Part shown: positions 18,558-62,886 of the stretch, one piece after another | Position numbering within the stretch: the stretch's first letter is position 1 | Layout: every line of letters begins with the position of its first letter | Notes under the pieces: model-generated | Told to the model about the DNA's origin: nothing | Databases searched by the model: none | Seen by the model: only the letters and a program-made list of their open reading frames with translations | Translations under genes and position numbers: made by a program | Assembly (NCBI RefSeq): GCF_000003815.2 | Contig: NC_049993.1 | Location: 14,904,430 to 14,968,429 of the forward strand | Direction: 5' to 3' | Source: Branchiostoma floridae | Taxonomy: Eukaryota; Chordata; Leptocardii; Amphioxiformes; Branchiostomatidae | DNA length: 64,000 bases

Positions 18558-18738
18558 TTTACTGAATTACATGAAGAGATAACAAAAATAGAGTCAAACG
18601 AGAGTCATTCAACAAAAAAATACAATATCAGTATGAGAGCAAATGATAAAAAACTCGAAATTTTAAAGAGCATGGTTTTGTACATGGTACACGATTAAGT
18701 CTAACATGCATATTTATTGCCACAACTTTATCATGTCC
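18558..18738 (+). repeat. 181-bp block duplicated at 22290-22470
   Basis: The sequence starting TTTACTGAATTACATGAAG and ending CTTTATCATGTCC is repeated, as far as I can align by eye without differences, at 22290-22470. In both places it precedes a copy of the transposon 5' end. However, the 66 bp (here) and 68 bp (there) between block and transposon are unrelated. This mosaic is explained best by allelic copies joined in assembly, or by a complex rearrangement. Confidence 0.9.
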
Positions 18739-18796: not shown

Positions 18797-18804
18797 TATT
18801 AGGG
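18797..18804. repeat. Candidate target-site duplication, left (TATTAGGG)
   Basis: TATTAGGG immediately precedes the transposon 5' end (CCAGGGGG) at 18805. The same 8 bases immediately follow its 3' end at 34400-34407. The second copy of the 5' end (22539) lacks this flank; it is preceded by AGCTTCCA. The 18805 copy therefore appears to carry the true left flank of the insertion. Confidence 0.75.
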
Positions 18805-19564
18805 CCAGGGGGAATTTGCATATATCCCATGATGCACCGCGGTCTCAACTATATATACGCTCGAGCCGTGACGTCATCATTTGAATAATGGCGGGTCCTG
18901 GCGCTGGACCTTCCCCGGGAGCCGCTATAAACACTCTGTATACTGTGCAACCAAAGCTTCTGGACCATAATCCTGAGGTTTTGCTTTGTTGTCTGGACAC
19001 GCGCAGAGTCCCGCTGCGGTTCTCGGGCGTTTCGTGTCTGGAAATAGTCACGAGACGCTGCCACATTGCGGTAACCGGCGATCCACCGAACGTCCGGCGG
19101 TTGTGCCTGATGCCTGACCGGGACGGTGACAGGATGTTTGCCGGTGTGCTGTCCCCGGTAAAACTACGCATCAAATCGAGCTCAACCATCAAAGTAAGGA
19201 TTACTTTATGTCGTTAATCATTCTTGTGACCTTTGTGATTTTTTTTTGTGGTTGAAAGACGATTAATTCCGCAGCAAAAATATAGAAAATAAAACAGGCT
19301 ACGAATGGGGTGGGAGTGGGGGTGTGGACACCGGCATAATTTGTCGTGTTGCACATTTCGGTACTGTCTCCTGTAAAATCGCAAGTTATACAATTTTCTT
19401 ACTTGACAGGCCTTTTTGATTTCGCACGAACCCCGGTAATTTTTGTTGTTGTTGTCGAAATTGGAGTATTTTGATAGTAAAAAAGTTGTGTTTGGGCAGA
19501 TTGATTACAGAAAACACAATCAAATCAATTTCTACAATCAATGCTTTGTGTCCAAAATGTCTTT
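18805..19564 (+). mobile_element. Partial duplicate of the transposon 5' end
   Basis: The TIR, promoter, first exon and part of intron 1 of the left-hand transposon gene. It is nearly identical to 22539-23299: I see one T-run length difference and one G/T difference in a G-rich run. It stops at the 100-N gap, after which the sequence is unrelated (importin-alpha region). The left flank matches the right flank of the main element, so this is probably the real 5' end of the insertion, with the downstream copy an allelic or duplicated version. Confidence 0.85.
18888..19193 (+). pseudogene. Orphan first exon of the HIRAN-like transposon gene (duplicate)
   Basis: Encodes the same 102 residues as exon 1 at 22622-22927 (start MAGPGAGPSPGAAINTLY), followed by the same GTAAGG splice donor. 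Its exon 2 is absent: the sequence runs into the N gap and then into importin-alpha exons. It is either an assembly duplicate of the intact exon or a truncated element. Without a downstream exon it cannot make the full protein as assembled. Confidence 0.8.
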
Positions 19565-19664
19565 NNNNNNNNNNNNNNNNNNNNNNNNNNNNNNNNNNNN
19601 NNNNNNNNNNNNNNNNNNNNNNNNNNNNNNNNNNNNNNNNNNNNNNNNNNNNNNNNNNNNNNNN
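19565..19664. other. Assembly gap (100 N)
   Basis: Exactly 100 N, a conventional length for a scaffold join of unknown size. It separates the duplicated transposon end from the importin-alpha fragment. Confidence 0.99.
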
Positions 19665-20099
19665 GGCTGTCTTCAAGGCCCATCCCATGTCCCAAGATAG
19701 TAATTTGCTTGTTGGGATGGATAGACATGACAGCCGTTCCGTCCAACGATATGAACTACATGACATGAAATTGATGAAAATGTACTGCTGTAAGCTTAAA
19801 ACTATATGATTAGCAACTTAAGTCAAATACAAGGCTCCCAAACAATGGGATGAGTGGGATAGAATAAAAATCTATAAAAAAAATGTAAAGGAAAGACAGC
19901 GCTGATCTCTTTGAGTTTTTTTCTTATTTTCATTTGTAACCACCTTGAAATTTCTGCTGCTGTAGTACCTGACCTTGATAAGATCAATTTGGCCTTCACG
20001 AAAAAGTGATTTACAGTGATTGTAAGCTTAACTTGAAATAGGAAAACAGGGTTGTCTTTGCAAGCTAGCAAGATTTATTTCCATTCTTTTCTTCCCCAG

Positions 20100-21599
20100 C
20101 TTGTTGTGGATGCTGGAGTGGTGTCCAGACTGGTGCTGCTGCTGGGGTGTGGGGAGTTGTCTGTGCAGACGCCCTGTCTCCGGGCTGTGGGCAACATTGT
20201 CACAGGAAATGACATCCAAACTCAGGTATGTTTTTTCTGGATTGTTTTAACACCTAGAAATGCAAGATAGCAAAAAACTATTCTGTATGTATGTATATCC
20301 AATTACTTAATCTTTGTATGTTAGAATTTAGATTATTTACCTGTTTTTAAATACTTTACGTATTTAGTTTTGTTCACTTGCAATTAGCCCCATGGGAATG
20401 AATTTACAATAAAACCTTTTTATTAGATTTTTTTTCTGCTAGCAGAATGATTATCAATGCATAATAGATAGTCTAAAGTAGGAATCATACTCCCATGCTT
20501 TAGCCTAAGTATATGTATTGAATATTGGCTGTGCACAGAAACATTTTATTAGCAATAGTCATGTTGGTTTTATGGAACAATGTCTTCTTCAGGCATCTGT
20601 TTTCACTTCATGAACAAGACCTACCATTACCTGAAACTACAGCAGACAGAAACTACAGCAACACTGATAAGTGTAGTATAAACATAACAAGATGATGGTG
20701 GCCACCTAAACTCAAAGAAGAAGACCAATGTTGTACCTAAGTACACACAGAAGAAACTAACCAGTTATTCTTCCTGCCAGGCTGTGTTGGACCAAGGTGC
20801 CCTGGCCTGCTTCCCTGCCCTGCTGCGCCACCACAAGAACAACATCCAGAAGGAATCAGCCTGGACCATCTCCAACATCACTGCAGGGAACACCATCCAG
20901 ATCCAGGCAGTCATCGACGCAGGGCTCGTCCCTCCCCTCCTGGAGGTGCTACACAAGGTGGGGGAGCAGCCATGTAGTATTGTTCAGTTAGATATCCTTC
21001 CCGCAACTATCAGTGTGCAGGGCACATCTCCTCATTTTTTTACCCCTTGTGCCACACACAGTTGTGCAAGCTCTACAGCTTGTCCATTCTTCTGAGTTTA
21101 TGCTCAAAAGTGACTGGTCATTGTTGATTCTGAAGAGGGCGACGTTGAAAATTTGATTCTTGTACACCTTTATGTTGGAAGAAAGTTAAGCTTTAAAAAT
21201 GATTATTACAACCAACACAGATGAGCCTCAATGATACCTAGTCCGCTGGTTTGTGTAGTACTCAAAGAAGAGATGTAGATCATTCTGAAACTATTCTTTA
21301 TAAGACGTAAGACTACTTCAATGGACTGGACATTTTTAACACATCAGCAGTGTTTTTGGATGAAATTTCAAACTAAGGAAGTTGTTTCTGACAGTTGAGT
21401 GATGTTTTGTTCCCAGGGAGATTACAAGAGTCAGAAGGAAGCAGTGTGGGCCATCACAAACTTCACCTCAGGGGGCTCCGTGGAGCAGATTTGCCAGTTG
21501 GTGAACGCTGGTGTTATCAAGCCGCTGTGTGACATGCTTGTCGTCAGGGAGTCCAAGATTGTCCTGGTCATCCTGGACGCCATTGGAAACATCTTCACT
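20100..21599 (+). CDS. Importin-alpha (karyopherin alpha, KPNA2-like), three internal exons only
   Basis: Three exons with canonical splice sites, all in phase 0: 20100-20225 (42 residues), 20781-20957 (59) and 21417-21599 (61). Joined they give 162 residues of armadillo repeats. Typical signatures are the ARM helix phrases [24 protein letters not shown] and [14 protein letters not shown], where W and N are the ligand-groove residues. Importin-alpha binds classical nuclear localisation signals on these W/N arrays and carries cargo into the nucleus with importin-beta. The phrase ending [14 protein letters not shown] resembles the KPNA2 subfamily more than the KPNA1/3 groups (from family knowledge). 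The importin-beta-binding N-terminus, first ARM repeats and C-terminal end are missing. No upstream or downstream exon is visible, and the fragment lies between two copies of a transposon end. It is probably a displaced contig, less likely a captured or broken gene. Confidence 0.85.
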
Positions 21600-21706
21600 G
21601 TAAGGGACAGATGCTTTTAGTCTTATCTACATGCAGGTGTAGAAAAGGAAAACTGTTTGTGATATATTAATGAAAGACATCCAGGTAGGAAGATATGACA
21701 AATTAC

Positions 21707-21762
21707 CCAAGCAACTGGATATTGTTTTGGAAATCATACAGAAAATCCTATCCAGTTGCTTG
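21707..21762. repeat. Short perfect inverted repeat (hairpin)
   Basis: CAAGCAACTGGATA near 21707-21721 pairs with TATCCAGTTGCTTG at 21749-21762, with a loop of about 27 bp. It lies downstream of the last visible importin-alpha exon. No function is assigned. Confidence 0.7.
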
Positions 21763-22289
21763 AGTACCCGGCAACTGCTATTTTGCATAGCAAAATTGTA
21801 ATGCTTCTCAGGTTCACAGGTCAGGGAAGCACCAGGTATTTGTTTCACAGAACTGGGAGCTTGATCTTGGCTTCTACGTCTGCTTGAAGATTAGCTTTGG
21901 TTCATGTGTCTAGAAGTCTTTGTAGAGTTGTGTTGACTAAATGCCATCACAAACAGCTACCTTACCGTACCAGCATGTCAAATTTCAAGTAAGTTTATGG
22001 TAAAAGATGCATTGGACTTTTTAACCATCTATTGCCTAGAAAAAAGGACCATATCAAAATTAGCAATTGCTTATTAGCAGCATACCACCAGCAAAATCTC
22101 TGTTTAACTAGTTGCCACCTATGTTGGTTTAATGTTGTATTTTGTTAGAATGCCATCCCTCTGTTAAGTTGGTTCAGTCCAACCACAGACTCCTAAAGTC
22201 AGTCATGTTGGAAATAAACTCCTCACGTTTGCTGCATTAATGACAATTCCCATAAACGGTCTCACTCGGGACTCTAATCAGCTCGAAAT

Positions 22290-22470
22290 TTTACTGAATT
22301 ACATGAAGAGATAACAAAAATAGAGTCAAACGAGAGTCATTCAACAAAAAAATACAATATCAGTATGAGAGCAAATGATAAAAAACTCGAAATTTTAAAG
22401 AGCATGGTTTTGTACATGGTACACGATTAAGTCTAACATGCATATTTATTGCCACAACTTTATCATGTCC
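22290..22470 (+). repeat. Second copy of the 181-bp block
   Basis: Matches 18558-18738. Upstream of it is importin-alpha intron-like sequence; downstream are 68 bp found nowhere else in the window, then the transposon 5' TIR. The abrupt switch at 22290 is a candidate chimeric join. Confidence 0.9.
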
Positions 22471-22538
22471 ATAGCAAGACAAACAGTGTGTGGCTTTTAC
22501 GGCCATTCACGACGTCCCCAAGCCGCCTGTAGCTTCCA

Positions 22539-22571
22539 CCAGGGGGAATTTGCATATATCCCATGATGCAC
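22539..22571 (+). repeat. Transposon left terminal inverted repeat
   Basis: 33 bp starting CCAGGGGGAATTTGC. It differs from the reverse complement of 34367-34399 at positions 2 (C/A) and 9 (A/G) only. It contains the POU octamer ATTTGCAT and CCCATGATGCA. Confidence 0.85.
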
Positions 22572-22621
22572 CGCGGTCTCAACTATATATACGCTCGAGC
22601 CGTGACGTCATCATTTGAATA
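22539..22621 (+). promoter_or_regulatory. Promoter of the left transposon gene, built into the TIR
   Basis: Within 83 bp before the ATG lie: octamer ATTTGCAT (in the TIR); ATCCCATGATGCACCGCG, which fits the ZNF143/Staf site consensus YWCCCRNMATSCMYYRCR at 16 of 18 positions by my comparison; a TATA-like CTATATATA (about 22583-22591); and a perfect CRE palindrome TGACGTCA (22603-22610). The consensus motifs come from established knowledge of vertebrate promoters. Their use here is inferred. Confidence 0.55.
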
Positions 22622-24542
22622 ATGGCGGGTCCTGGCGCTGGACCTTCCCCGGGAGCCGCTATAAACACTCTGTATACTGTGCAACCAAAGCTTCTGGACC
22701 ATAATCCTGAGGTTTTGCTTTGTTGTCTGGACACGCGCAGAGTCCCGCTGCGGTTCTCGGGCGTTTCGTGTCTGGAAATAGTCACGAGACGCTGCCACAT
22801 TGCGGTAACCGGCGATCCACCGAACGTCCGGCGGTTGTGCCTGATGCCTGACCGGGACGGTGACAGGATGTTTGCCGGTGTGCTGTCCCCGGTAAAACTA
22901 CGCATCAAATCGAGCTCAACCATCAAAGTAAGGATTACTTTATGTCGTTAATCATTCTTGTGACCTTTGTGATTTTTTTTTTGTGGTTGAAAGACGATTA
23001 ATTCCGCAGCAAAAATATAGAAAATAAAACAGGCTACGAATGGGGTGGGAGGGGGGGTGTGGACACCGGCATAATTTGTCGTGTTGCACATTTCGGTACT
23101 GTCTCCTGTAAAATCGCAAGTTATACAATTTTCTTACTTGACAGGCCTTTTTGATTTCGCACGAACCCCGGTAATTTTTGTTGTTGTTGTCGAAATTGGA
23201 GTATTTTGATAGTAAAAAAGTTGTGTTTGGGCAGATTGATTACAGAAAACACAATCAAATCAATTTCTACAATCAATGCTTTGTGTCCAAAATGTCTTTT
23301 CATGATCACCATAATTTTATTGTGGTTGAAACACAAGTCAAAACAGGAGGACAGGAGTAAATTCCACAACAGAATCATGCTATGAATGACTTCAGTGCAT
23401 TGTTTGTTAACATTACTAGTATGATATCCTCTGTAAAACTGTAATTCTGATCAAGTTACTAGTCTACTATGTATGTATGTATAACGTTAGTGGTTTTCTT
23501 TATTTAACATGTCTTTGTGATGTTATTTAACCTCTGATAATTATGTTGTCAGAAGTCGAGGGTTTTTGTTGCAATAAAAGGGCACGTGTACAAGGCAGCT
23601 TTGCAAATTATTGTGGCAGAAAGTGACCAATATCTAACTTATCTTACAGTCCGCATGTTTTATTTGTTAACAAAAATGTGTTAAATGCTTTACTTGATAT
23701 TAGATTAACTATGATGACTTCAGTGTCTCAAATTATGACAAGACTTGAAGAACTAAACAATGGTGGCTTTTTTTTTACAGTTCAACTGTTCTCAAGATGC
23801 CAACATGGAGGAGGCACAGGGGACACTACTGTGGGAGTTTGAGGTGCTGCCAACAGACAGGACAGCTTTGAAGCTTCCACTAATCACAGCAGACATCCCA
23901 GATCTACCAGATGATGTGGACCTTCAACCTGTCGACCCCAGCTTGCTGCATCCGGACCAGTGTAATTGCCAGAAATCTACACAGTCACCTATGGTCATTG
24001 TTGACATGGAGCCAGACATGCAGTTCGACCCTCTTTCAGAGACTTTGCAGGACATTCAATTGTCTGGGGAAGAATCTGATGGCTCAGATAAAAATGAAGA
24101 CTCTGGCGGAGACACAGACACTGAGGAACGGGATGACCAAAGGCTAAGTGGACAGATATTTCGTGTTGCAGGGTCAACGTGGCAGACATGCTATCAAGAA
24201 GCACTAGATGCATGTTCTACTTTGCGACGAGAAGGTAAAGATATAGAAACCCGTGCAGTGTTTGAGAGGGACAATATAAAGGACAAAAATGCTATTAAGT
24301 TTGAAGTTTTTGTTGATAACTCCTGGCAGATAGTAGGCCACTGTCCAGGTCCTAAAATTCCCAAATTGACCAGGGCGATGAAGAAAGGCGTGGTCATTGA
24401 GATAACTTTGCACAGATTAACACTTGATTATTGCACCCCTGCTAAGAAGAACCTGTACAAAGCTTATGTAAAAATTGTAAAGGAAGGTACCTGGGAAAAG
24501 GATAGTGTGAACTATCAGTACAATTCGTTTATTGCAACATAG
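22622..24542 (+). CDS. Two-exon transposon gene with C-terminal HIRAN-like module
   Basis: Exon 1 is 22622-22927 (102 residues, donor AAA|GTAAGG). Exon 2 is 23781-24542 (acceptor TTTTTTACAG, 253 residues plus TAG stop). The junction is phase 0, total 355 residues. Exon 1 is basic and arginine-rich (CLDTRRVPLRF, RRCHIAV) and unrecognised. Residues about 185-222 are strongly acidic, rich in D, E and S. Residues about 259-305 (TRAVFERDN, then KNAIKFEVF, then IVGHCPGP and KLTRAMKKG) follow the HIRAN pattern: variable residues, then N-A-(I/V)-x-V, then (I/V)-G-(H/Y)-x-P. HIRAN domains, as in HLTF, bind 3' single-stranded DNA ends. I infer a possible accessory role on transposon ends or repair intermediates. 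Alternatives: a self-regulator, or a host-gene fragment carried by the element. The gene starts 50 bp inside the TIR, which argues that it belongs to the element. Confidence 0.75.
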
Positions 24543-24584
24543 ATGTTCCTTTCCAAGAATCTCCAAAATATGGTCTTTGATGGA

Positions 24585-24590
24585 AATAAA
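24585..24590 (+). terminator. Polyadenylation signal AATAAA of the HIRAN-like gene
   Basis: Canonical AATAAA 43 bp after the stop codon; a further AATAAA-type hexamer follows near 24616. Confidence 0.6.
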
Positions 24591-24722
24591 TAAGGCTTAA
24601 GGACACCATTCTTTAATAAATATTATTTAGCAACTTCTTGTTACAGTCTAACCTAGTCTTGCCACAAGTGAAATATTTAGCATCTTTTGATATCTACGCA
24701 GAAACAAAGATTAAGACTTTAG

Positions 24723-24836
24723 TATTGTATCCCTGTTAATAAGAACCTGTACAAAGCTTTTGTCAAGATCGTAAAGAAAGGTAACTGGGAGAGGAATACT
24801 GTAAACTACAAGTACAATTCGGTTATTGCAACATAG
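24723..24836 (+). pseudogene. Decayed duplicate of the last 38 codons of the HIRAN-like gene
   Basis: Aligns over about 114 bp with 24428-24542, including AAGAACCTGTACAAAGCTT and ACAATTCG(T/G)TTATTGCAACA, and ends at the same TAG. It encodes a similar peptide (AYVKIVKEG versus AFVKIVKKG type) but without the preceding HIRAN-like part or its own start. It arose by local duplication of the 3' end. An expressed role is not supported, though it could be an alternative 3' end. Confidence 0.8.
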
Positions 24837-24933
24837 AAACCAGGCTTTTAGCCAGGCAGGCGTACACTTACTTGGAAACTATATTCAAATTCCTTCTATT
24901 CTCTATGTCTTATCAATGCAACATGTATCTCCC

Positions 24934-25640
24934 GACTTGCAACAAAATAGCATCTTTTATGAGTATACATTGAGTAATAAAACCAAAGTTTCTGAAGAAC
25001 ACAGGATCTGAAGATCATGCCTCATATGTACAAAAAACTAGTTTGACACAAGGCAAAAACTGATATCTTATAAGGTCAGAACCTGTATAACACTTATGAC
25101 TATGTCTATACATGTGTTCTCCTCTTTCCTGACTTGCAACAAAATAACATCTTTTATGAGTATCATTGAGTAATTAAACTTAAGGTTCTGAAGAAAACAA
25201 AATCTGAAGAGCATGCCTCATATGTTCAATAACTAGTTTGACAGTTACAATAACTAGTTACAATAACTAGTATAACACTTGCAACAATGTATATACCTGA
25301 GTTCTCTTCTTTCTTGACTTGCAACAAAATAGCATCTTTTAAGTATACATTTAGCAATTAAATTAAAGGTTCTGAAGAAAACAAGATCCGCAGTGCTTGC
25401 CTCATATATACAATAACTAGTTTGACAGAAGGATACTTCAAAGCATATAACTAGGCAAAAACCCGTATAACACTTGCGACAATGTCTATATATACCTGTG
25501 GTCTCAAGATCAAAAACTGATTGTCATATAAGGTCAATACCTGTATAACACTTGCAACAATGTCTATACCCGAGTTCTCTTCTTTCCTCACTTACAACAA
25601 AATAGCATCTTTTACAAGTATACATATACAGAATAAAAAG
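24934..25640. repeat. Tandem repeat array between the two convergent transposon genes
   Basis: CTTGCAACAAAATAGCATC and close variants recur near 24934, 25135, 25318 and 25590 (spacing about 200, 183 and 272). Intervening shared phrases include GTTCTGAAGAAAACA, CTCATATG and ATAACTAGTTTGACA. It lies in the intergenic centre of the transposon, where transcripts from both sides would end. Confidence 0.75.
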
Positions 25641-25911
25641 TAAGCATACATAAAATAAAAGACTTAGATATATACAACAGTGGTGACAGGTGGAAACAAG
25701 TGGCTATAGGCACTTTCTTCTGTAAAAAAACAAACAATGCTTGGTACCATGACTAAAAAGTACATTTATATCAAAATCTCACTCATCAAAAAATCGGGCA
25801 AGTGGGGTAGGACATGAGCTTGCCCAATCAGCACTTTCACTTGGCTAGGACAATAAAACTTTTGGACTTGTCCAACCCTGGATGTGGATATAACAGTTTA
25901 AAAGTAATCTT

Positions 25912-28900
25912 CTAAACAGGTGGCAAGCTACTTGGGACCTCAGGCAGTGGCACTTCTGGTCTGTGCATTATCTGCCTGATGGTCCCCCTGTTCCTGACCG
26001 GCAGGACACCCCTTGCAGTTGTGAAAATCGAAGCGTCTTCCCTTCTACAAGTGCGCAGTCGGTGGAGGCGCAGACGACCATCCTCAGGGTCATCATTGAA
26101 GGATGGGTAAGTGTCTTCTGCTTCCCTGAACCTCTCACTGATTGTCCAGTAGTAGAAAGGCAGGTCTGGGTCAATTCTCTTTGAGAATTCCCTGTGAAAG
26201 ACAAATAAATAATTACAAACCTGTTCAAGTGAAATAATACATGCCATGGACACAAGAATTAAGAATACTGCCCATAATGACCTGTTCAAAAGTGATTTGT
26301 AATGTACGTCGCAAGTACAATGTGAGTACATGAAACCTTTCAATAATTTTACAAAAAGACCATACTGTAATTGTAAATGTTTGAAAAGATACTTAAATAC
26401 CTGACTTCTGTAGGCCATCGAGCATGCAACTCCTTGAGGGTAAAGGTGTTTCCCATGTGTCGGTGAAGTCCAGCAAAGAAACACTCTACATCGTCTGTCG
26501 TGCTCGCTCTTGGATGCTCTTCATAGCCAATTGTCGCACTCTCACTTCTCCGCAGCTCCATTGACTCGATATTTGTTGTGACCGCGATGAGGGTTTCTCG
26601 GCTCCACCCAAGTACTCCTCGACCGAACCTAAAAAAAGCGACCAGAACAAAGATGTTCATTTCACTGGGTCTTTAATCCATCTAGGCATTCTCGAGTTAT
26701 ACTATTTGGTAAAGCCCCTATCTCACTGGATTTGCAAGTTAAAGAGAGCGGTTACTGCATTTTTTATATCTAATCATATTCATTGTGTAGGGTTTTCTTG
26801 CCTGTTGATGTCAAGAGTTGAGAAGTCTGGAGGGTAACGGCGCCATGGGGGGGAACGGTGATATGGCATCAGCTCATCAAGGATCATGTCCATCATGGCT
26901 GTGTTCTTCTCCTTCCTTTCTTCCTCTGAAAGCCCTCGGCCATCAGCTGCTTCATGCCATCCAGCAACAACTTCGATATAGCATGCTTCCCGGTGATACC
27001 CTCTGTGTCGGAGAAACCTGACCATGTTGTAGGACAGCAAGATCTCTGCATCGGTGACAGACTGCTTTCGGAAACCAAACAGGGCTGCCTCTGTTAGCCC
27101 TGGCTTGGGCTCACCATCTTGCGGATGGAGCGCTTCTTCGAGAGCATGGTGGTTAAACCACCGGGGAGGCTCTTTTCTGAGGTGACCAGCAATTCTCTTG
27201 AGGAGATGGCAATGATCTTCTCTTCTGTGAAGGTAGTTGAGGCCGTCTTTCTCTGGGACATACATGTGGTGTGTGAAATCAACCCCCTCAGTTCGAAGTT
27301 CCTCTATTCTGAGACGGTATCTGTATGTGGCCATTATTGATCGCAGCATGTCAGCCATGCACTCAGGCGAGTTGGCACGGAAGGTTGAGGGGCCACAATC
27401 TGGGGGCACGAGTTGTCCACGCAGTCTTACTACAGCATCCTCCTCTCTCATCTGCTCCACTGTTGTGAGTTTGTGGTATTCTTCAATCACTTCTGGTGGG
27501 ATAGCCTTCTCCCTCATCTCTGTCAATGGCATGCCATTGTCATCCTCTGCACAGTGAAACCACAATCATCAATTAGTACAAACTGATGGGGAGTTCAGAG
27601 TCTATTGTGACATAAGCTGAACACATTTGGTTCGACAAGGGCAGAATTTGTGAGAAGATACAAGATGGCTTCACCATATTCCCCCTGCAGAATATCCCTG
27701 AAATCAGGTGAATTTGTTGCATTGTAAGTGTACTTGGGCCAAAGATATATCACACGGATAAAACATACTAATGTCAGTGGTACTGCACAGTCTGATATAA
27801 TAGAGAGGCCAAACATTAAAGTCAAGTCAGCAGAGAAAGAAACTAACCTCCAACTTTCCGGAGTGACTTCAGCACAGTGTCAGAAGCCATCCTCCTGACA
27901 CTGTCTTTCACCCCACGAATGATTTCATAGAGATGAATAGGGCGCTTGTTCCCAAGCGTCCTTAGGGAGTTGAACTCTCCATCCGTAACATCACCTGACA
28001 ACAAATCACAAAGCACCACATCACTGATAGATTTGCAAAATGAAAAAGCTCTAAATGGAAAATTAGCTTTGAGTACCTAAAAAAGCCCCCAGCGCACAGG
28101 CTCTAGGGCCAACCCACTAGCATTGCACCAGAATATACCAATGGTCAACACCTCAGCAAAGACTATGTAGTCTACAAATGGACTTTATCATGAATTTTCG
28201 TTGAAATGTCTCAATAAAGAAGACAAATTTTCCTATAATGGATTTTGTTCAGCTTTGCATCATTCAACAGAAGCACTGTCATATTACAAAATACAGACAA
28301 GAGTAACACTCTACTTTTACTTTTGTGCTTTAACTTCAACTTTTGTCTTTACTATGTTTATAGTGGAGTTAAGCTTCACATGTAAAGTATAGACTCTTAC
28401 CAACAGGTATCAGTCCCAGCTTCTTGGCCTCCTCATGGCACTTGTCCAGGAACTGCTGGAGGAACTGATCCCGGATACTGTGATATGGAATGAGCAGGAT
28501 TGGCACAGCATAGGGCTTCTGATTTCGTCTTTCGTCAGACACCATAACGACCAATGCATGATCAGCAGCCACTCTCTTCTTCTTGAAGAGATTGTGCAAG
28601 TAGGTTTTGTTGTCTTCTCTCAGTTCCACCAGACATTGGGCCACACGGCCAGGTTGAGGGGAAGCAGTTCCAAGAGCTGCCAGCAGCCTTTCATACCTAC
28701 ATAATATAGAAAGCATGTGCATGAAGGTAAAGGTAAAGCAGTCATCCTCAACTGATGTGAAGCATAAATTGTGCTTTTTCAAGTAGCTCAGGTACATGTA
28801 GTTGTGCAATGCGGCTTTGCTAACTACTTGATTTATATAACTATGCAGACAGAAAATTGAAGTCAATATTTCTAAAAGTCACCTTTCATAGAAGGCTTTG

Positions 28901-31900
28901 GCCTGCTCCAGAAGGGTATTGTACTCTACCCTGTCCCATGCCAGGTTTTTCAGCACATCTGTAGATGAGTTAGCCTGCTCGAATTTCTTCTTATACCTCT
29001 TGTTTGCTGCCTCAAGGCCACCTTTCAGCAGATCAATGTCTTCTCCAAGATCCTGAAGGAGACTGAGGAGACAGGCCTCTAGATTGCGTGGCACGCAGGA
29101 CTTCCCAGCTTCCCTGACAAGGACCATGCGTCTGTCGTTGTCAGCCCTTAGCTTCTCCAGGCTTCCATCCCCAAGATCAACGTCTCCAGCCCATTTGCCC
29201 TTTGTAGATGTCTGCAGAGCAACCTTCAAATCACAAGCATCAGCCTTAAACCAGACACGTGCTCCTGGCTTCATCTTGGCAAAGGATTCCAGTGCAGCGA
29301 TCTGTATATAACAGAACAAACTTTACTGTATACTAATCTGATATGCATAAAATAGTAAAAGTTTTCCCAACATCCATGTCTATTCTTTAGTAGTGTGTCT
29401 ACCAAATGAAGCTCAATAATTTCCATTCATAGACATCACAAGGAGCAGAACTGCTGATACTAGTAGTATTACTGCTCTTTTTTTTTTAAGGTTTGCAAAC
29501 TCACATGGATACTGGAGTTGCCATCAAACTTCTCATTCTGTGCCAGTCTGTACATGGTGTCCAGGGAGGGGGCGGCGACATTAATATGTGCCTGTCAGAG
29601 AAGGAAGAGAATCATATGTCAAATAAGACATGACAAGTAAAAAAAAATAGACAAAAATTACACAGTAACAGAACAAGATGTACTTTCTTCAAATGCACAG
29701 TATTTAAGTGCCCCTAATTCTTTCACAATTCATGTTATCATACTACTCAAGGTAAATATCACTCTGAGCCAGCCTCCTTAGTACTGTACTAACTTAGGGA
29801 ATCTACTGGAATAACTAAGTATGTCAAATACATACAAAATGGAATTGAAAAGGTATCGCTATTATGGCAAATATTCAGATACTACATTAAGTATATGGAC
29901 TGGTTATCATCACAATTGAAAATTTGTGAAACATAAAAGCCATCTTTATACATGTAGTAACCTTCAATGGGTCCAAGTCAGTGCTTTCCAGGCCACTCCA
30001 CCCTGGCCCCCGAAACAGCCTCAAGAACCTGGTTGGAAACTCAGCACACATGCTCTCCAACCAGCTGGCATAGTCTGGAGAAATGCTGACCTACAGAACA
30101 TACATGAGTACCATTGTATAAATTAATACCATAACAAGTTGGACATAACACTGTCTCTTGCTATGAAGTCTGCAATCTTCATCATATCTGATATCACCAT
30201 AGATAATTTGTTCACACCCTCCTACCACAATGAACAAAGTTCCTGATCACACTTCTAATTGCCCAACACTACATGGCTTGGGGCCTGGCTAATTGCACAG
30301 GAAGATGGTAGCAAAAATGAATTGGGGTTTTCGGAAAACCCTGTTCAGTCCAGACAGGGAAATGGGGCGGAAAACCCTGTCCAGTCTGAAAAGAGGGTCT
30401 GCATAGGGGTTCCTGGCAATGCTTAAAAGTATTACTTCAGACAGCACTTACACAGCATAATGAGTGACCCAAAGGTGCAATATGCATGCACACAAAGTCA
30501 GTTCTGTCAAATGCAAAGTACCCAATTAACACTTATCTGGTAGGACATGAGGGGAGAGAATTGTCCATCAAACAATGGATAGTGAGTGTCCGTCAATTTC
30601 GGGTTGTTAAATAATGGCAATACATTACAAAGACAGGCTTTGAAGAGCTGGTCTGTTTAAATCCTGGTCTGTTTAAATCCTGGTTTAATAGAATGACTGC
30701 GAAAGGTTTCAATATCAACACGACTTTAGTACACAATGTTATAACATTACATATATTTTACAATGCACTACAATAAAGCCGAGATGGCATTTTTCAAACG
30801 ATAGTACAAGTTGTGAGCTATATAGAACTATGTATCCTTTTAAAAATAATGTGTTTTATTTGCAAAATTATGCCGTAAGGCTAATAGCATGTTCAGTCTC
30901 AAAGACTTAAAGAGTAGACGTTTTTTATATGATGAGAAGTAACAATGATGGATGATTTTTGTTAAGTAATAATTTTTGTATGACATTGTGTCACACTTCA
31001 AGTTGATGTTATTTCTGTGCTTAGCCGTATTAAAGATTAAAAAAAAATGTTGTTGTATACTAGTACTTAGTAGCTTACACCGTATACCCCCATGCAGACC
31101 CTCTTTTCAGACAGCTTACAATGTATACCCCCATGCAGACCCTCTTTTCAGACTGGACAGGGTTTTCCGCACTCCGGACTGGACAAGTTTTTCCGAAAAC
31201 CCAAATGAATTGAGGTAATTAGTTACAAAATTAGACAAAACTAGCCAAAACAACAAACAAAAAACTAAGAAGGCATTCTTTACTGGAAATGCTATCATTT
31301 TAAATTAGTAAATCAGATAAGTATCATTATATACTGATGCTAACCTGATGTACATTGGTGGCACTGAAGAACTCCATCTGGTATTGTAGTAATCCAAATG
31401 GCATCCTGTCAATTTGGAGCAGAGGGGTGGAGGTGCCAGGCCTGTTGGTGCTCAAGATGTGGGCAAACTTGTACAGGATGTTGGGCTTGTTGTGTTCTTG
31501 TAGGGTGGACATGGCATTGATGGACTTTGAAAAGAAGTCGGTTGGGTATGTGGAAATATTCTTTGCTGTAGCTACAACTGAGAACAGTTTATCACCAAAG
31601 GATAGAACTGAAGATGATTGAACGATTTGAGGAAGCAGCATAAGCATGAAAGAATCAAATTCTGATTGGGTCAGGGCCTTGCAAGAAGACAGTACTGTTG
31701 TGACATCATCCTGGCAGCTATGTTCAGTTTGTGTTTGCTGGTCCACAGTCAACTTCTTTGTCTGGCATCCCCTGCTGACTGTTTCTTTGGTTTTCTTTGC
31801 ACGGCTGATTGAATTCGTCTCAAGACCAAAAGACTTCACAGCAGCTTCAAGGGATTCGTCGAATTTCGTCCTCCACTTCCTGCACCTGTTCCTCACTGTG

Positions 31901-33712
31901 TTTGCTGTGAATAGAAAGAGAAACAGTGTGTCACTTAAGAGAAACCTTTGCTATTGACAAGGTATGACTTCATATCCCAACACCTTGAGGGACTACACTC
32001 ACACTAAATGTGAGAAATAATAGAACTTCTTTTGATTTCTATCAGTTCTAAACTTGTTGCAATAATCTATCAAGGTAAAGACAGCAAGAGCCATTGTTTT
32101 TCACTGACCTGAAAGAAGTTCACTGCTCCTGGTTGCCGTCTTGATTGATGTTGCAGCCTCTGTCCAAAAGGGACTGTTAGCGTGCCTCATTGGCCAGGAT
32201 GCTGTGTCAGTGACATTTTCATCCTGATCAAGGTGGCTTAGATCCAAAAACTGGATCAATGCCTTGTCCTCCTTATCAGTCCACTGATGGTGTTTCACAG
32301 GCCGAGGGGACTTGGCCAGTTGAATCTTTGGGGTGAGCATGTGCCCCAAAGATCGTGTTATCTGTTGCAAATACAGGATACATGTAATTTGTAGCAACAA
32401 GGAGAAACTATAGCAAAGTTTGCTATAGTTTAACTGTTACTGAGTGTCATCATCAGTCTTGGCTCACCAATCTTACTCGACTTCTGAATAGTTTCTGCAG
32501 GGATTCATGATGTAATAAACATACTATGAAATTACATCACATCAGTGCACTATGAAATAACATCACATTAGTGAAATAATTGTATTAATGGTATAATTGA
32601 CAACAGTAAAACTGTCCTTAACCTGTAAGGTCATCAGTGAAAGCTAACAATTTGTAAATTTGCTACATCCTGTTGGACCATTCCACAACAGCCAATGATG
32701 ATCTTGATCGAGGAAACATTTTCTGTCTTATGGCAATTAATCACCTTAGGACTTAGGAAAGAGAGAGGTCGGCGAGCTCCTCCATCTTTCTTTCCATGTT
32801 TGTGCTGCCTCCTCTTCCCAGACGGGGTGTGACCACTCCCGCCAACATGTGGCCTCTTTTGGGGCGTTGATGGAGTAGACATCATGACTGAGGGAAACAA
32901 TATTGGACAGTCTAAGATGATTTTTACCCTTTTATAGAATATATTTCCTTGAGGTATTTCAATGAAGTTATTGATGACACTTTGCTCACTTTGGGAGAAT
33001 GAGACACAGTTATTGAACATGTCAATAAAGAACCAAAATTAAAGCAAAATGTACCTTTAACATTACAATTTAGGATAATTTTCTATCTATGGATGTCCCA
33101 TAAGATATAAACTGGTCTGGTATGCAATTTTTTTCTGTTTCATTGGCAAGGATTAAAAACTCTCGAAAATAAACTATGATATTCATAAACATCACTGCTA
33201 ACCTGGGGAATCAACAATAATCCATAAATTACAAATCTTACACACCACTGCACCACTTGATAACTTACAAATTCTGACAGACTCTCAAATTATGAAACTG
33301 AAAGACTACAACTACTTTTTGACAAGATTTATTGGTCCAAATATCAACGACAGTACGTATATGACAGTGAAGGTGAAAATGTAGATCAGACTCCTTCGTA
33401 TAACTCACAAGCAAGCCTAACCAGTCAATAATGACAAGATAGGTAAACAAGTTCTACGGCTATGTGATCCCGAGCGACCGTCTGTTTAGCGAATATTAAG
33501 CCCACAAACGCCCACCCTTGAAAAGTCTGTGCTACATAAATCTAGTTCTTTTGCAAGTACAGTAATACGTTCAGGTTGGGCTCTCATGAGTTTCAAGTGA
33601 ATTCATCGACCCGAAGTACGAAAATCCATCTTGGTAACTTCCGCCTTTGCGACATATACGATACCCACTCACCTCCGCATTTTAAGCGAGTTTCCAGTCC
33701 AACCAACAACAT
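25912..33712 (-). CDS. Twelve-exon candidate transposase (Myb/SANT + putative RNase-H-like D-D-E core)
   Basis: My splicing (high to low): 33712-33673, 32887-32745, 32361-32109, 31904-31345, 30090-29962, 29591-29505, 29301-28883, 28696-28401, 27994-27848, 27546-26802, 26628-26401, 26191-25912. Every junction keeps frame: 3327 bp, 1108 residues, TAG stop. Introns are GT-AG except the one after 26802, which has the GC donor AG|GCAAG. Residues about 84-157 are Myb/SANT-like, with spaced tryptophans W88, W127 and W156. Residues about 405-450 contain FKADACDLK and GDVDLGDG, followed by a charged helical stretch. Then come [17 protein letters not shown] and, at 644-655, [21 protein letters not shown] lies at 983-991. 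D425 (or D428), D647 and E988 are my candidates for a DDE/D triad, with an insertion of about 340 residues before E. It would cut and paste the element by binding its TIRs in the nucleus. The superfamily is not recognised. The exon 1 start is inferred; an ATG at 32885 is the alternative. Confidence 0.75.
30325..31202. mobile_element. Nested non-autonomous element with perfect 10-bp target duplication
   Basis: Begins GGGTTTTCGGAAAA and ends with the reverse complement TTTTTCCGAAAACCC. It is flanked by identical AAATGAATTG (30315-30324 and 31203-31212). Inverted repeats extend about 85-115 bp inward, with shared blocks GGAAAACCCTGTCCAGTC and AAAGAGGGTCTGCAT; the right arm holds the last block twice. 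A target duplication of 9-11 bp and long TIRs suggest a MULE/Mutator-type MITE. It has no coding capacity. It lies in the intron between the fourth and fifth coding exons of the transposase and so does not break the gene. A 17-bp tandem duplicate (CTGTTTAAATCCTGGT) lies inside. Confidence 0.85.
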
Positions 33713-34366
33713 TTTCCGTTTGAATAGGTTTTCCCTGAATGTCTGCTAAGTCCCCATACTGTAACAATCTTTCCAAACTTTCTAAATTGCTTTAGGAAGG
33801 TAAAACTACGGCGCGTTCGTGTTTGTTTACGTGTCCGCCATCTTTTCTTTACCGGCTTATTTGCATATGTTAATGAGTTTAAAGGGCCTCCGCGCGACTG
33901 TCAGGCGTATGTAAACACGACCAACCATGCGATCCTGCGCGGCTGTTTTCGTGATCTTCCTATGAGTGCTTTTTGGTGCTTTTCGTTTTTTTAGACACAC
34001 AATCAATCTACCATACGTAAACTACACTTTTTTTAAAAAAGCACCACTATTTGATTAACCAATGCGGAAGATTTGATAGCACTATATGCAAATCTCCAAC
34101 ATGCGACAACGGGATTTACGCATGAGAAGTCTATCGGCATTTACCTCAAAATTAAACATGTTCCTCGGGTATCACACACATCAACACTTTTCATGGAAAA
34201 CTACAATTCCCGAACTCTAAAAAATGACGAAAATTACCCACCTAATTCTCTTGGCTGCTGTCCAACATGGCCAACATCTTGAAGATGCCCATGCCCTACA
34301 TCTTGGGCTTTGCAGTTCCGGGTTTGCCGGCGTTCGCGCGGAAAATCGAACGCGATCGAAAGTAAA
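33713..34366 (-). promoter_or_regulatory. Upstream region of the transposase gene inside the right TIR
   Basis: Read on the minus strand, a YY1-type AAGATGGCGG sits at about 33835-33844, some 120 bp above the proposed ATG. The octamer ATTTGCAT lies at 33859-33866 (plus strand). ACTACAATTCCC, a frequent companion of ZNF143 sites, lies at 34200-34211 (plus strand). No clear TATA box. Assignments rest on known animal promoter motifs; function is inferred. Confidence 0.4.
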
Positions 34367-34399
34367 GTGCATCATGGGATATATGCAAATCCCCCCTTG
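34367..34399 (-). repeat. Transposon right terminal inverted repeat
   Basis: Reverse complement begins CAAGGGGGGATTTGC and matches 22539-22571 at 31 of 33 bases. It is followed directly by TATTAGGG. Confidence 0.85.
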
Positions 34400-34407
34400 T
34401 ATTAGGG
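34400..34407. repeat. Candidate target-site duplication, right (TATTAGGG)
   Basis: Perfect 8-bp match to 18797-18804, directly abutting the right TIR. The match in the surrounding sequence extends to TATTAGGGCC because the left TIR also starts with CC. The 8-bp reading gives flush TIR ends on both sides. Confidence 0.75.
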
Positions 34408-34949
34408 CCATCAAGGTAAATCAGAATGGATTGGTAGTAACCAAGATCAAAACATATGAAATATGATCTTCAAAATGTAACACATTCTATGAAAAAAATG
34501 CCAATTACCTTTATATACAGGGCTAACTGAAATTGACATCAGAGTAATCAATCAATGAAGGAACGCATGTACACCGTTTGTTGCTAATTAGGAAAAACGC
34601 TATACCTATTATCTTAGGCAAAAAGGTATGTTCTGGCAGTGATTGTGTGCTTTTATTTGTGGATGAACAACCATGGATTGTATTTATATTTAGAATGGGA
34701 GTGGAGTTAATGATACCTTAACATCATTACTCTTCAGGCTTTTTGATTATGCAACATACAAACATGGCAAATATTGTACTTACATGAACCTCCTGGAGAT
34801 ATCAAATCATTCTATCCAATAAACCAGATGGCTGCTGTAATACTCCAACAAATTACTTTGACAGTTGACGGATTGGTCCGGAATTTCCAACATCGCCTTA
34901 GAAATTAGGCTTAGGATAATCAAAGTCATTATTTGAGCAAACGAGCTTC

Positions 34950-59139: not shown

Positions 59140-60272
59140 TTAGGTTGTGTCACATGGCCAATAGGTGTTGGGCGGTGTGACAAGGGGGAGGGGCGCACGC
59201 TGAGGTGTGTTACGTGTTCCCTGCACGGGAATCTCCCATGGCCAGTACGTGTTAGGTAGTGTGATATGGGGGAGGGACCCACGCCTTGGTGTGTTACTGG
59301 TTCCTTCAACTTTTATCTCCCATGGCCAGTAGGTGTTAGGTGGTGTAACAAGGGGGAGGGACGCACGCTGAACTGTGGTACGGGCTTCCTGCACTGTCCT
59401 CTCCCAAGGCCAGTAGGCCTTGGTGACAAGGGGGAGGGACTCACGCCGTGGTGTGTTACGGGTTCCCTCAACTGGTATCTCCCATGGCCAGTAGGTGTTG
59501 GGTGGTGTGACAAGAGGGAGGGACGCACGCTGAGGTGTGGTACGGGTTTCCTGCACTGGAATCTTCCAAGGCCAGTAGGTGTCCGTTGGTGTGACATAGG
59601 GGAGGGACGCACGCCGTGGTGTGTCATGTGTTCCCTCACCTGGTAACTCGCATGGCCAGTAGGTGTTAGGTAGTGTGACAAGGGGGAGAGGCGCACGGTG
59701 TGGTGTGTCATGTGTTCCCTCGCTTGTTATCTCCCATGGCCAGTAAGTGTTAGGTGGTGTAATATGGGGGAGGGACGCCCTTTGTGGTGTGTTACGGGTT
59801 CCCTCGACTTTTATCTCCCATGACCAGTAGGTGTTGGGTGGTGTGACAAGGGGGAGGGACGCACGCCGTGGTGTGTCATGGGCCCCCTCCTCACTTGGTA
59901 TCTGCCAAGGCCAGTAGGTGTTAGGTGGTGTGACAAGGGGGAGGGACGCACGCCGTGGTGTGTCATGGGCCCCCTCCTCACTTGGTATCTCCCAAGGCCA
60001 GTAGGTGTTAGGTGGTGTGACAAGGGGGAGGGACGCACGCCGTGGTGTGTCATGGGCCCCCTCCTCACTTGGTATCTCCCAAGGCCAGTAGGTGTTAGGC
60101 AGTGTGACATGGGGGAGGGACGTACGCCTTGGTGTGTTACGGGTTCCCTCGCCTGATATCTCCCATGGCCAGTAGGTGTTAGGTGGTGTGACATGGGGAA
60201 GGGACGCGCGCCGTGGTGTGATACAAGTTCCATCCCCGGATATCTCCCAAGGCCAGTAGGTGTTTGGCAATG
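59140..60272 (-). repeat. Coding tandem repeat array, 84-87-bp unit
   Basis: About 14 units encode PNTYWPWEI followed by a variable 6-9-residue stretch, then TPRRASLP-(H/L)-(V/I)-T. Variable positions cluster right after WEI (SGEG, PSEEGAHD, KVEG, PVQG). Three neighbouring units (about 59860-60120) share the longer PSEEGAHD form and are nearly identical, indicating recent local duplication. One unit (KAYWPWER) has lost its N-T. The array also stays open in other frames and on the opposite strand, so antisense frames here are shadows. Confidence 0.95.
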
Positions 60273-62886
60273 CCAGGAAGGCGATATGAGCTTCCGTGAC
60301 ATTTTGACCCCTGGACACGATAGCATCTGTGACGTTGACAAAGGTCCTCAAACCTTGGTCTGCAGGCCGGGATACCAAAGCTGTTCTTAGCTGTCTACGA
60401 GCCCGTAGACCATGTACCTCAGGGGACATTCTATAGAAGCTGTTAGACTGGATGTTGCTCCCTTCAGCCAAGCCATATGTGACCACAGAGCTTCCAGGTC
60501 GGTGCCCTCTGGAAGCAGAGGTGACATCCCGAAAGGCCTGACGCTGTTGACCCCTATCTCTGACGACAGACCGGCCATTGGTCCCTTCAGCCAAGCCATA
60601 TGTGACCACAGAGCTTCCAGATCGGTGCCTCCCGGAAGCAGAGGTGACATCCCGAAAGGCCTGTCGCTGCGGTGGCCTGTTTCTGACGACATGATGCAAA
60701 ATCTCGGCAGCATCAGCATAGAAAGGCATGGGTCCGCTTTCATCATCCGGGATCTCACTGTAGGTATGTCGTGATACAGGCAGGGGGCGCTGTGCAGCGG
60801 CCCCATGATCAGAGATCTCCCAAGCTGTACGCGGGGGAGCAGGCAGGGGGCGCTGTGCAGCCGCTACGTTATCTGGGATCACACTGTAGGTTGGTTCAAT
60901 GGACTGGATAACGGCCGGTAATGACCTACAGGATACTCTATCGTCTGCGGTGCCCCCGCGTGTACAGGATACTGCGGGGAGAGAAGAAGACCGCACCACG
61001 CTGGAGATGGCGTCATCTGGAATCTCCCAGTATGTGTGGGGGAGACCAGGCAAAGGCCTCTGAGCAGCCGCTATGTCATCTGGGATCTCGCCGTAAGTGG
61101 GCTCGATGGAATCAAGCACAGCAGGCAATGACCTACAGGAGGCTACGTCATCCGACGTCCTCTTGTTTGGCCAAGCAGGAAGAGAAGCCGACCTCAACAA
61201 GCCGGGGAAGGCAACACCAGGCGGGATGGTCCAGATGTGTGCATCGTCGCTGTTCATCTCATACTCGGCTTTAGCCTTTGGTGAGCGCAACTTCCATGCC
61301 AACATCACAAGTGACAACACGACCAGGCTGACCATAGCCGAGACCACAACTGAGATGACAACATGATCTGTTGTTGGAGTCATGCCTGAACCAGGTGTGG
61401 TACTCACCTGTAGTGTGGAGTTGTCTCCCGGTTTTGAAGATGTGTGGTCTCTTTTCGTATGTTCAGAGTAGTGTGGCAGGTAGGTGGAGTGATCAGTCTT
61501 TGTTAGGTGAGTGGTTGGTGTAGTGGGTGTCTGGCAATGCACCGGGGGCGCACTGAACACAATGTGTTCATCTTTGGTAAGCAGAATGCAGGTGATGTTC
61601 TTTGCATTGTCATGGGTGGCGTTTGCATGGGTGGTGTGCTTTTTGTCGCATCCAGACTTTGTGGTGGTGTGTGTGTTTTCGTCTTGCGTCTGAAGAAACG
61701 ACATACCAACACCTTCAAAGGTTGTGTTTCCTGTGGCCATGGAAACCAGACGGAAAACATGGTTTCTCAACAAGTCCACTACAATGCCCTCGTCGTATTC
61801 GTGAACCTTCCGGCACTGCTCAAGCATGTTGGGGACCACTTTGTCTGCCACAGAGCCGTTAGTAGCCAAGACAACCACAGGGGGCTGGATTGAGATCGTG
61901 CTCAAAGAGCGATCCAAGGCACCACATGATATGCCAGGGTTGATATCTCGCACACCGGTGGTACCAGGCACACGGTCTGATGAAGCAGACATCCAGCCAA
62001 ACGAGAGTCCAGGAGTTGCCATAGTTTGTCTGACACAGAAGAGGAACTTGGGCACCCCAACAACCAATGTTGAACCTCTGAACATACTCGTGAACCGATG
62101 TAGGCTCCATATCATTGCATGTGGCTTTGCATCATGGACAGATGACAACATACTACTGCTGATATGGAGCATTCTCAGGACATGCTGTTCACGAAGCACA
62201 ACGCGATCCAGACATGACAGATCATTACCACTCAGGTCTAACCAGGTCAGCTGTAGATGTTGGAATGACCTCGGGGAAATGCTCTTGATCTCATTCAACC
62301 CCAGGTTCATGATCATGGTACCTTCCAGACCAAAGAGCCAAGCAGGGTCCACAACCTGTAACATGTTGTTCTCTAGATCCAAGAACGTTAGGCGAGTCAG
62401 GTGACTAAAACTTGCCGGATCGATCTGCTTGATGCAGTTGTTAGACAAAATCAGCATCAAGAGCTTCTTTAAGCCAGTGAACCAGGTCTGTTTGACCTTT
62501 GCCAACCTGTTATGATCTAGGGACAGTGCTTCTAGATTGGTAAACCCAACGAAGGAGTTGTTCTCCATATCTGTGATCTTTGCTTCTATCAGACCCAATG
62601 TGTCGACCCGAGAGTGATCAAGCGGTGTCAGGCTCTCAGCCGACAGGACGTGGAATGGGAATCCTCTTATTGCAACACCCTCGGCCTTAGCAACGAAAGA
62701 GAAAGGACTTCCAGAGGTGACCCCCTCACTCAGGACCTCACACATGACACATGCCCCAGTGTAACCTAGTAGTACCGGCTTGTCTGTTAAGGGCACACAT
62801 TCTCGCCATACAACAGCCTTACACTGAGAAAATCGAGAGCCATCTGAAGCTACACAGGATGCTGTCAAGAGGAGCAAGAACAACAT
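59140..62886 (-). CDS. LRR transmembrane receptor with YxxI motifs and a YWPW repeat tail
   Basis: Single large exon of 1248 residues from the chosen start. I chose the ATG at 62886 because it opens a signal peptide (MLFLLLLTASCVAS) and lies two bases after a splice acceptor (AACGCAG). A donor CAG|GTAAGT at 62973 suggests an 85-bp 5'-UTR intron. The frame also extends to an ATG at 62937 (17 more residues). Order: Cys-containing N-cap; about five LRRs (about 92-227, e.g. LEALSLDHNRL, LTWLDLSGNDL); Cys-containing region; Ser/Thr-rich stalk; membrane span 509-531; cytoplasmic tail of about 715 residues. The tail has spaced tyrosine motifs (PTYGEI, HTYWEI, PTYSVI, HTYSEI; one equivalent is TAWEI), a 42-residue tandem duplicate (QAFRDVTSAS), then 13 full and one partial 28-29-residue repeats around PNTYWPWEI. 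Lancelets have greatly expanded LRR receptor families. An innate recognition or adhesion role with tyrosine-based signalling is inferred; no TIR or death domain is present. Confidence 0.85.
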   Translation of the reverse strand: MLFLLLLTASCVASDGSRFSQCKAVVWRECVPLTDKPVLLGYTGACVMCEVLSEGVTSGSPFSFVAKAEGVAIRGFPFHVLSAESLTPLDHSRVDTLGLIEAKITDMENNSFVGFTNLEALSLDHNRLAKVKQTWFTGLKKLLMLILSNNCIKQIDPASFSHLTRLTFLDLENNMLQVVDPAWLFGLEGTMIMNLGLNEIKSISPRSFQHLQLTWLDLSGNDLSCLDRVVLREQHVLRMLHISSSMLSSVHDAKPHAMIWSLHRFTSMFRGSTLVVGVPKFLFCVRQTMATPGLSFGWMSASSDRVPGTTGVRDINPGISCGALDRSLSTISIQPPVVVLATNGSVADKVVPNMLEQCRKVHEYDEGIVVDLLRNHVFRLVSMATGNTTFEGVGMSFLQTQDENTHTTTKSGCDKKHTTHANATHDNAKNITCILLTKDEHIVFSAPPVHCQTPTTPTTHLTKTDHSTYLPHYSEHTKRDHTSSKPGDNSTLQVSTTPGSGMTPTTDHVVISVVVSAMVSLVVLSLVMLAWKLRSPKAKAEYEMNSDDAHIWTIPPGVAFPGLLRSASLPAWPNKRTSDDVASCRSLPAVLDSIEPTYGEIPDDIAAAQRPLPGLPHTYWEIPDDAISSVVRSSSLPAVSCTRGGTADDRVSCRSLPAVIQSIEPTYSVIPDNVAAAQRPLPAPPRTAWEISDHGAAAQRPLPVSRHTYSEIPDDESGPMPFYADAAEILHHVVRNRPPQRQAFRDVTSASGRHRSGSSVVTYGLAEGTNGRSVVRDRGQQRQAFRDVTSASRGHRPGSSVVTYGLAEGSNIQSNSFYRMSPEVHGLRARRQLRTALVSRPADQGLRTFVNVTDAIVSRGQNVTEAHIAFLALPNTYWPWEISGDGTCITPRRASLPHVTPPNTYWPWEISGEGTRNTPRRTSLPHVTLPNTYWPWEIPSEEGAHDTPRRASLPLVTPPNTYWPWEIPSEEGAHDTPRRASLPLVTPPNTYWPWQIPSEEGAHDTPRRASLPLVTPPNTYWSWEIKVEGTRNTPQRASLPHITPPNTYWPWEITSEGTHDTPHRAPLPLVTLPNTYWPCELPGEGTHDTPRRASLPYVTPTDTYWPWKIPVQETRTTPQRASLPLVTPPNTYWPWEIPVEGTRNTPRRESLPLVTKAYWPWERTVQEARTTVQRASLPLVTPPNTYWPWEIKVEGTSNTPRRGSLPHITLPNTYWPWEIPVQGTRNTPQRAPLPLVTPPNTYWPCDTT

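Follow-up and report, generated by a model that had tools for sequence, protein, structure and literature searches.

Which mobile element occupies the stretch of Branchiostoma floridae DNA at C15:14904430-14968429 (64,000 nucleotides, referred to here as the window, to which positions without a contig name belong), and where does its transposase stand among DNA transposons? The original prediction described an intact element of 11.9 kb at 22539..34399, carrying two convergent genes and possibly representing a new superfamily. The locus is probably best explained by a DNA transposon of the cut-and-paste kind, about 12.4 kb long, autonomous and recently mobile, that encodes a P-related DDE transposase with a split RNase H fold and a HIRAN helper protein. 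Elements with these terminal inverted repeats (TIRs) have inserted at independent sites with a flush target-site duplication (TSD) of 9 bp, and their movement would be by cut and paste. Superfamilies of eukaryotic DNA transposons are few, and a recently moved element with an unplaced transposase offers an enzyme that can be tested.

Terminal Repeats and Copy Number

An inverted-repeat scan of the window finds two left ends that pair with one right end, with arms at 22538-22571 and 34367-34400 (34 nt, 94% identity) and at 18807-18837 and 34367-34397 (31 nt, 97% identity). Both the near-perfect repeats reported earlier (33 bp, 31/33) and the duplicate left end placed at 18805 are thus present. 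Together with flank comparison, the scan defines a left TIR proper to the window locus at 18806..18837 (CAGGGGGAATTTGCATATATCCCATGATGCAC), a second left TIR at 22540..22571 that pairs by its flank with the right end of the C9 copy, and a right TIR at 34367..34399 (GTGCATCATGGGATATATGCAAATCCCCCCTTG), all given on the forward strand. The TIRs of the element measure 32/33 bp and its termini read 5'-CA..TG-3'.

Further copies with the same ends were sought in the genome assembly (513,431,437 bases in 431 contigs). A 31-base end pattern has 20 exact matches and a 28-base pattern allowing up to three mismatches has 24, both counts being lower bounds, and the reversed control of each pattern has none. 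By their inner sequence the 24 ends divide into 11 left ends, on the HIRAN side, and 13 right ends, on the transposase side. Complete copies have a length, taken from coordinates, of 12,454 bp at C7a and C7b and 12,456 bp at C1, and a short copy, C7c, is a derivative of 758 bp that has kept both ends.

Target-Site Duplication and Empty Sites

With the start of the element set at CAG and its end at TTG, flanks were compared at lengths of 6 to 12 bases. Six pairings agree at 9/9 for a length of nine and at no other length in this range: GATTCCGCC (C1), GGACTGACC (C2 outer), GGCCACGAT (C7a), TAGCAGGTG (C7b), GTACGGCCC (C7c), and TATTAGGGC (C15, the window element taken as 18806-34399). In the window, the copies of TATTAGGGC lie at 18797..18805 and 34400..34408 on the forward strand and are identical. 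The 8-bp duplication TATTAGGG of the original prediction is therefore replaced by one of 9 bp; the shorter length was given up, since outside CAG the base varies (C, T, or G) and in all six elements equals the ninth base past the right end. Three pairings fail, agreeing at 2-3 of 9 positions, namely C2 inner, C9, and C15 when taken from 22540. Among 68 mispairs used as a control, the maximum of 9 comes from the inner left flank of the window and the right flank of C9, both of which read AGCTTCCAC; a separate control on flanks of 8 bp, run without reorienting minus-strand elements, reaches at most 5/8 in 68 mispairs. Read by eye, TCACGTGAC occurs at the left and right ends of C168, which the scaffold places about 55 kb from each other. 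In all, 8/11 left ends have a right end bearing the identical 9-mer. The unpaired left ends are those at C9, C226, and C6:26.3 Mb, and the unpaired right ends are C2 inner, C5, C302 (whose flank is the same as that of C5), C6, and C2:9.26 Mb.

The agreement between the inner left flank of the window, where AGCTTCCAC occupies 22531..22539 on the forward strand, and the right flank of C9 was followed by joining the two flanks with one AGCTTCCAC into a query of 188 bases, with the junction at query position 69. From 1,421 candidates, 40 places were scored, among them the C9 right flank itself. We count the other 39 as copies of a dispersed repeat, every one of which crosses the junction. The best of these, C9:2553983-2554148, covers query positions 1-162 of 188 at 92% identity. 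Of three junctions that were read, two contain exactly one AGCTTCCAC followed by CAAGG and the third contains the single-copy variant AGCATCCAC. These empty sites are paralogous rather than allelic, and, holding the 9-mer once, they show a 9-bp duplication and that the inner left end of the window and the C9 right end come from one insertion. They strengthen only the claim that the element is a transposon. The C9 allele at 7172 kb was rejected as a clean empty site, as the dispersed repeat is absent there altogether.

The copies C7a and C7b, about 216 kb apart, have different TSDs and show 99.5-100% identity wherever they were compared, which argues for recent movement. It is highly improbable that the repeated structure is a segmental duplication or an assembly artefact instead of a transposon: the window locus, C2 (with its N gap), and C168 do look misassembled, but C1, C7a, C7b, and C7c inserted separately, each with a 9-bp TSD of its own, and to these are added the paralogous empty sites.

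Assembly of the Window Locus

A large and apparently intact transposon is thus supported by the other copies, the duplications, and the paralogous empty sites, although the bounds first given to the window element do not stand. The flank at the 22539 start, AGCTTCCAC, lacks the window duplication TATTAGGGC and is the one found to the right of the C9 copy. A gap of 100 N at 19565..19664 lies between the two left ends and separates the left end at 18806 from the remainder. Of the sequence between the ends, the part searched runs from 21400 to 22538. Within it, 21400-22266 matches C9:7171434-7172300 at 98% identity (in our reading this stretch and the C9 locus carry importin-alpha-like exons), 22290-22470 repeats exactly the C15 flanking sequence of 18558-18738, and 22471-22538 lies in the dispersed repeat. 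The C9 copy's own right flank continues into sequence that is 93-94% identical, in two long pieces, to the C9 locus at 7171434-7172300. Given the mismatched flank, the N gap, the C9-matching DNA, and the copied C15 flank, sequence of the C9 copy has been joined into C15, and the window element is at least partly an assembly chimera. The stretch 19665..22538 (forward strand) is probably misplaced, and 22539-34399 was rejected as one certain physical copy on the evidence of the flanks, the C9-matching stretch, and the empty sites.

Composite insertions at C15 and C2 were judged unlikely to be real biology, since both hold N gaps. At C2:21010900-21014650 there is a probable misjoin at a 12-kb repeat, with an N gap (21014298-21014397) beside the extra right end, and C168, with its distant ends of matching TSD, is probably also misjoined.

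The Transposase Gene and Its Relatives

Two convergent, open, spliced genes could be modelled as had been predicted, the transposase with 1094 residues in place of 1108. Its gene lies on the reverse strand in 11 exons with one GC-AG intron. Exon 1 (32745..32885) is followed by exon 2 (32109..32361), which together with the start of exon 3 (31345..31904) is weakly Myb-like by profile search, and by exons 4 (29962..30090) and 5 (29505..29591). Exon 6 (28883..29301) holds the motif KADACDLK with D411, exon 7 occupies 28401..28696, and exon 8 (27848..27994) contains residue 633. Most of the insertion between the second aspartate (D2) and the glutamate (E) is encoded by exon 9 (26802..27546), after which the GC donor lies; exon 10 (26401..26628) carries TTDDVECFF with the putative catalytic E974, as indicated by comparison with relatives, and exon 11 (25912..26191) ends the gene. 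Projection of the model on C1, C2, C7a, C7b, and C9 finds every splice site conserved, the GC donor among them. Of the six copies examined, four have an open reading frame (window, C7a, C7b, and C9); in C1 and C2 the frame is shifted by one base, which counts against the reading given at the outset. The window and C7a genes differ at 9 synonymous and 5 nonsynonymous codons.

Intron 3 contains, at 30316-31211, inverted repeats of nested form that resemble a foldback insertion, with arms at 30316-30410 and at 31072-31211; its arms are also found in C1, C2, C6, C7a, C7b, C9, C168, and C302.

Relatives of the transposase occur in the same genome at C233, C10, and C6 (26.7 Mb), with about 50-70% identity outside the last exon of C233, and at C1 (31.73 Mb), with 38-51% identity. 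A relative at C13 (11.85 Mb) shares 31-48% with that at C1 and 32-37% with window exons 6 and 7. Across six exon comparisons, a set that omits a seventh row (exon 11, out of frame), pN is 0.185-0.395 versus a pS of 0.735-0.871, and the transposase is, judging from these values, under purifying selection. The motifs KxDxxD (D411), TDGE (D633), and DDVE (E974) are kept in the relatives L075, L076, and L082, with L077 covering TDGE alone, and the three residues are probably catalytic. On one chromosome, at about 19-28 Mb of C6, lie numerous fragments distantly related to the transposase and to HIRAN.

Other searches added little to this family. Around the C1:31.73 Mb relative, a credible pair of TIRs and TSDs was sought and not found. 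Pattern matches in viral contigs (16) and prokaryote contigs (37) include no relative, one exon frame used as a query against phages gave just two matches, with E=7, and a sequence search of the PDB gave nothing meaningful.

Placement Among DNA Transposon Superfamilies

Pfam profiles were searched with a maximum E-value of 10, at which HMMER filters drop most matches above about 0.1. No family reaches its cut-off in the window transposase, so that, as far as Pfam is concerned, the absence of a strong match to a known superfamily holds. The earlier proposal of a Myb/SANT-type transposase finds an echo in weak Myb matches (0.23 in the window, 0.028 and 0.15 in the relative L075), but all are below cut-off. 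Likewise, the statement that the element fits none of hAT, P, and Merlin stands insofar as no cut-off is reached, and is tempered by a weak, in-register signal of the P-type RNase H. The profile of this domain, PF21787, matches three of four family members below threshold, at 0.067 in the window and 0.051 at best; the same genome holds three matches to it above cut-off. When the core of the family from the first aspartate to D2 was compared by hhalign with the three PF21787 proteins of the genome, 98 columns aligned and the two aspartates fell in register (score 23.2, P 0.0038). Column shuffles have a mean score of 12.0 (s.d. 2.3), with 1/500 reaching 23.2, and the reversed profile scores 8.95. 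A distant relationship of the transposase to the P type is thereby suggested.

Several results weigh against this placement, beginning with the unreached Pfam cut-off. The PF21787 match is absent from the L082 exon, the most distant member, and stray weak matches to BCDHK_Adom3 (0.0096) and NleF_casp_inhib (0.01), each in one relative, have better E-values than PF21787. The hhalign probability is just 8.7%, on a core from which the helical insertion was trimmed by hand, and the core was compared with a P-type profile alone. Without trimming, hhalign against two P-type proteins of the same genome returned a low-complexity match and no P-like alignment. In the predicted fold of one relative's exon the strands are poor, with about 135 residues of helix before the third strand, and the 50 Foldseek matches listed for this one-exon fold include no transposase, nor does any of them reach E<=0.001.

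How far the element might belong to the P superfamily itself can be weighed from its architecture. P elements have an 8-bp TSD, 31-bp TIRs, and a THAP domain within 2.9 kb (PMC7776569). The element resembles P and THAP9 in its TIR length, in a short TSD of fixed length, in an insertion between D2 and E, and in the weak match around both RNase H aspartates. A very divergent P member that had lost THAP and changed its TSD by one base is favoured by the in-register RNase H signal and by TSD and TIR lengths close to those of P. It differs in its 9-bp TSD, seen in six elements, in its size of about 12.4 kb with 11 coding exons and a second, HIRAN gene, and in the predicted helix before the third strand. 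Neither THAP nor another P-type Pfam domain was matched in the window transposase and its relatives, within the HMMER filters noted above, and the plain profile comparison gave no P-like alignment. Chiefly for the 9-bp duplication and the absent THAP match, plain P membership is disfavoured, and we regard a very divergent P member as rather unlikely. The Pfam search shows no match to the GTP-binding insertion domain of the P type.

Membership of the Mutator (MULE) superfamily is a more distant prospect and appears improbable. The duplication of 9 bp would fit, as those of Mutator elements are 8-11 bp, often 9, and Mutator is reported to be close to P and hAT (PMC6446971). However, MULE, SWIM, and FLYWCH profiles all lack a match in the window transposase and its relatives, and TIRs of 32/33 bp are below the typical MULE length, although short ones exist (PMC6446971).

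Profiles of hAT, KDZ, and RAG type have no match in the window transposase and its relatives. Many hAT ends begin CAGGG, a resemblance to the element, and the TSD of RAG-like transposons is 5 bp, unlike the 9 bp found here. Like the element, RAG-like transposons have two convergent genes (PMC7204232). The hAT elements are also TIR DNA transposons, but their TSD is usually 8 bp, with variants of 5-7 bp, and that of Zisupton is 8 bp (PMC12730594). Zisupton/KDZ elements are DNA transposons of eukaryotes too, encoding a transposase and sometimes further genes; the genome has KDZ matches at 12 places, none of them at copies of the element.

On Pfam and profile comparison, it is plausible that the element represents a new branch of the P/hAT/Mutator clan. 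That it deserves the rank of a superfamily, defined by a 9-bp TSD, termini of CA..TG, a large transposase with many introns, and a convergent HIRAN gene as an obligate partner that persists over deep divergence, we hold to be nearly an even question, tilted slightly toward no; the suggestion of a new superfamily is unproven. There is also a substantial chance, if under one half, that the family is already named in Repbase or Dfam and that only its description is new. Lancelet transposons are a studied subject, and the comparisons made here exclude both databases; on the other side, none of the papers listed in literature searches fits by its title. Literature combining the HIRAN domain with transposases, also judged by title, revealed no eukaryotic DNA transposon.

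The HIRAN Gene and a Candidate Mechanism

The second gene lies on the forward strand, with exon 1 at 22622..22927 and exon 2, which carries the HIRAN-like domain by profile search, at 23781..24542, and encodes 355 residues. All four aligned members of this gene family match the HIRAN profile, the best at 6.2e-6, in keeping with the HIRAN-like accessory protein first proposed; the window member alone scores 0.01 (16.1 bits, below the cut-off of 24.7), and two close HIRAN types score 0.01-0.077. In the window, at C233, and, with 28% identity, at C1:31.7 Mb, the gene is convergent with that of the transposase, and since the layout is kept at such divergence the pairing looks old. Relatives of HIRAN bind DNA 3' ends. 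If HIRAN is indeed a long-kept partner, it would be a rare second transposon subunit, in a layout comparable to RAG1/RAG2-like elements, and could reveal the use of a 3'-end-binding module in transposition.

In the mechanism that we propose from sequence, the transposase would belong to the DDE enzymes and be distantly related to that of the P element, its RNase H fold being split and holding D411, D633, and E974, with about 340 residues from D2 to E. Its N-terminal, possibly Myb-like domain may bind the element ends, after which the enzyme would excise the element and join it to target strands 9 bp apart. By analogy, the HIRAN protein might act on the cut ends or at forks, aiding pairing, targeting, or repair.

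Separate multicopy HIRAN-like frames also occur in the genome, as open frames of 212-237 residues with 31-33% identity and one TAG each, at seven sites on different contigs (C9:22108649, C17:17301028, C2:22453203, C8:16243023, C13:3283858, C12:16882993, and C3:32861320). They perhaps represent another HIRAN-using mobile element.

Mosaic Structure

The two halves of the window element have different affinities. Long pieces of the transposase module (25289-34399) match the other copies at 96.7-100% identity, whereas the first 440 bp of the HIRAN end are about 78% identical to them. At the protein level, the HIRAN of the window shares 84-86% identity with its C233 counterpart and 55-72% with those of C1, C2, C7, and C9, while the window transposase closely resembles that of C7 and, its last exon apart, is distant from that of C233. 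As these comparisons indicate, the window element is a mosaic of a divergent-type HIRAN module (22540-25290) and a near-identical transposase module (25290-34399). The break appears near the repeat-rich stretch that separates the gene ends, where a repeat scan finds direct repeats at 24930..25625. Assembly errors alone are insufficient to account for the mosaic, because the outer left end at 18806 has the same HIRAN type.

The last transposase exon of C233 (L075:5429-5707) has 97% protein identity to the window, compared with about 42-81% for its other exons, and may be another sign of exchange between families. Beyond the element, window positions 60001-62000 have a GC content of 0.546, against 0.33-0.46 in the remaining 2-kb blocks.

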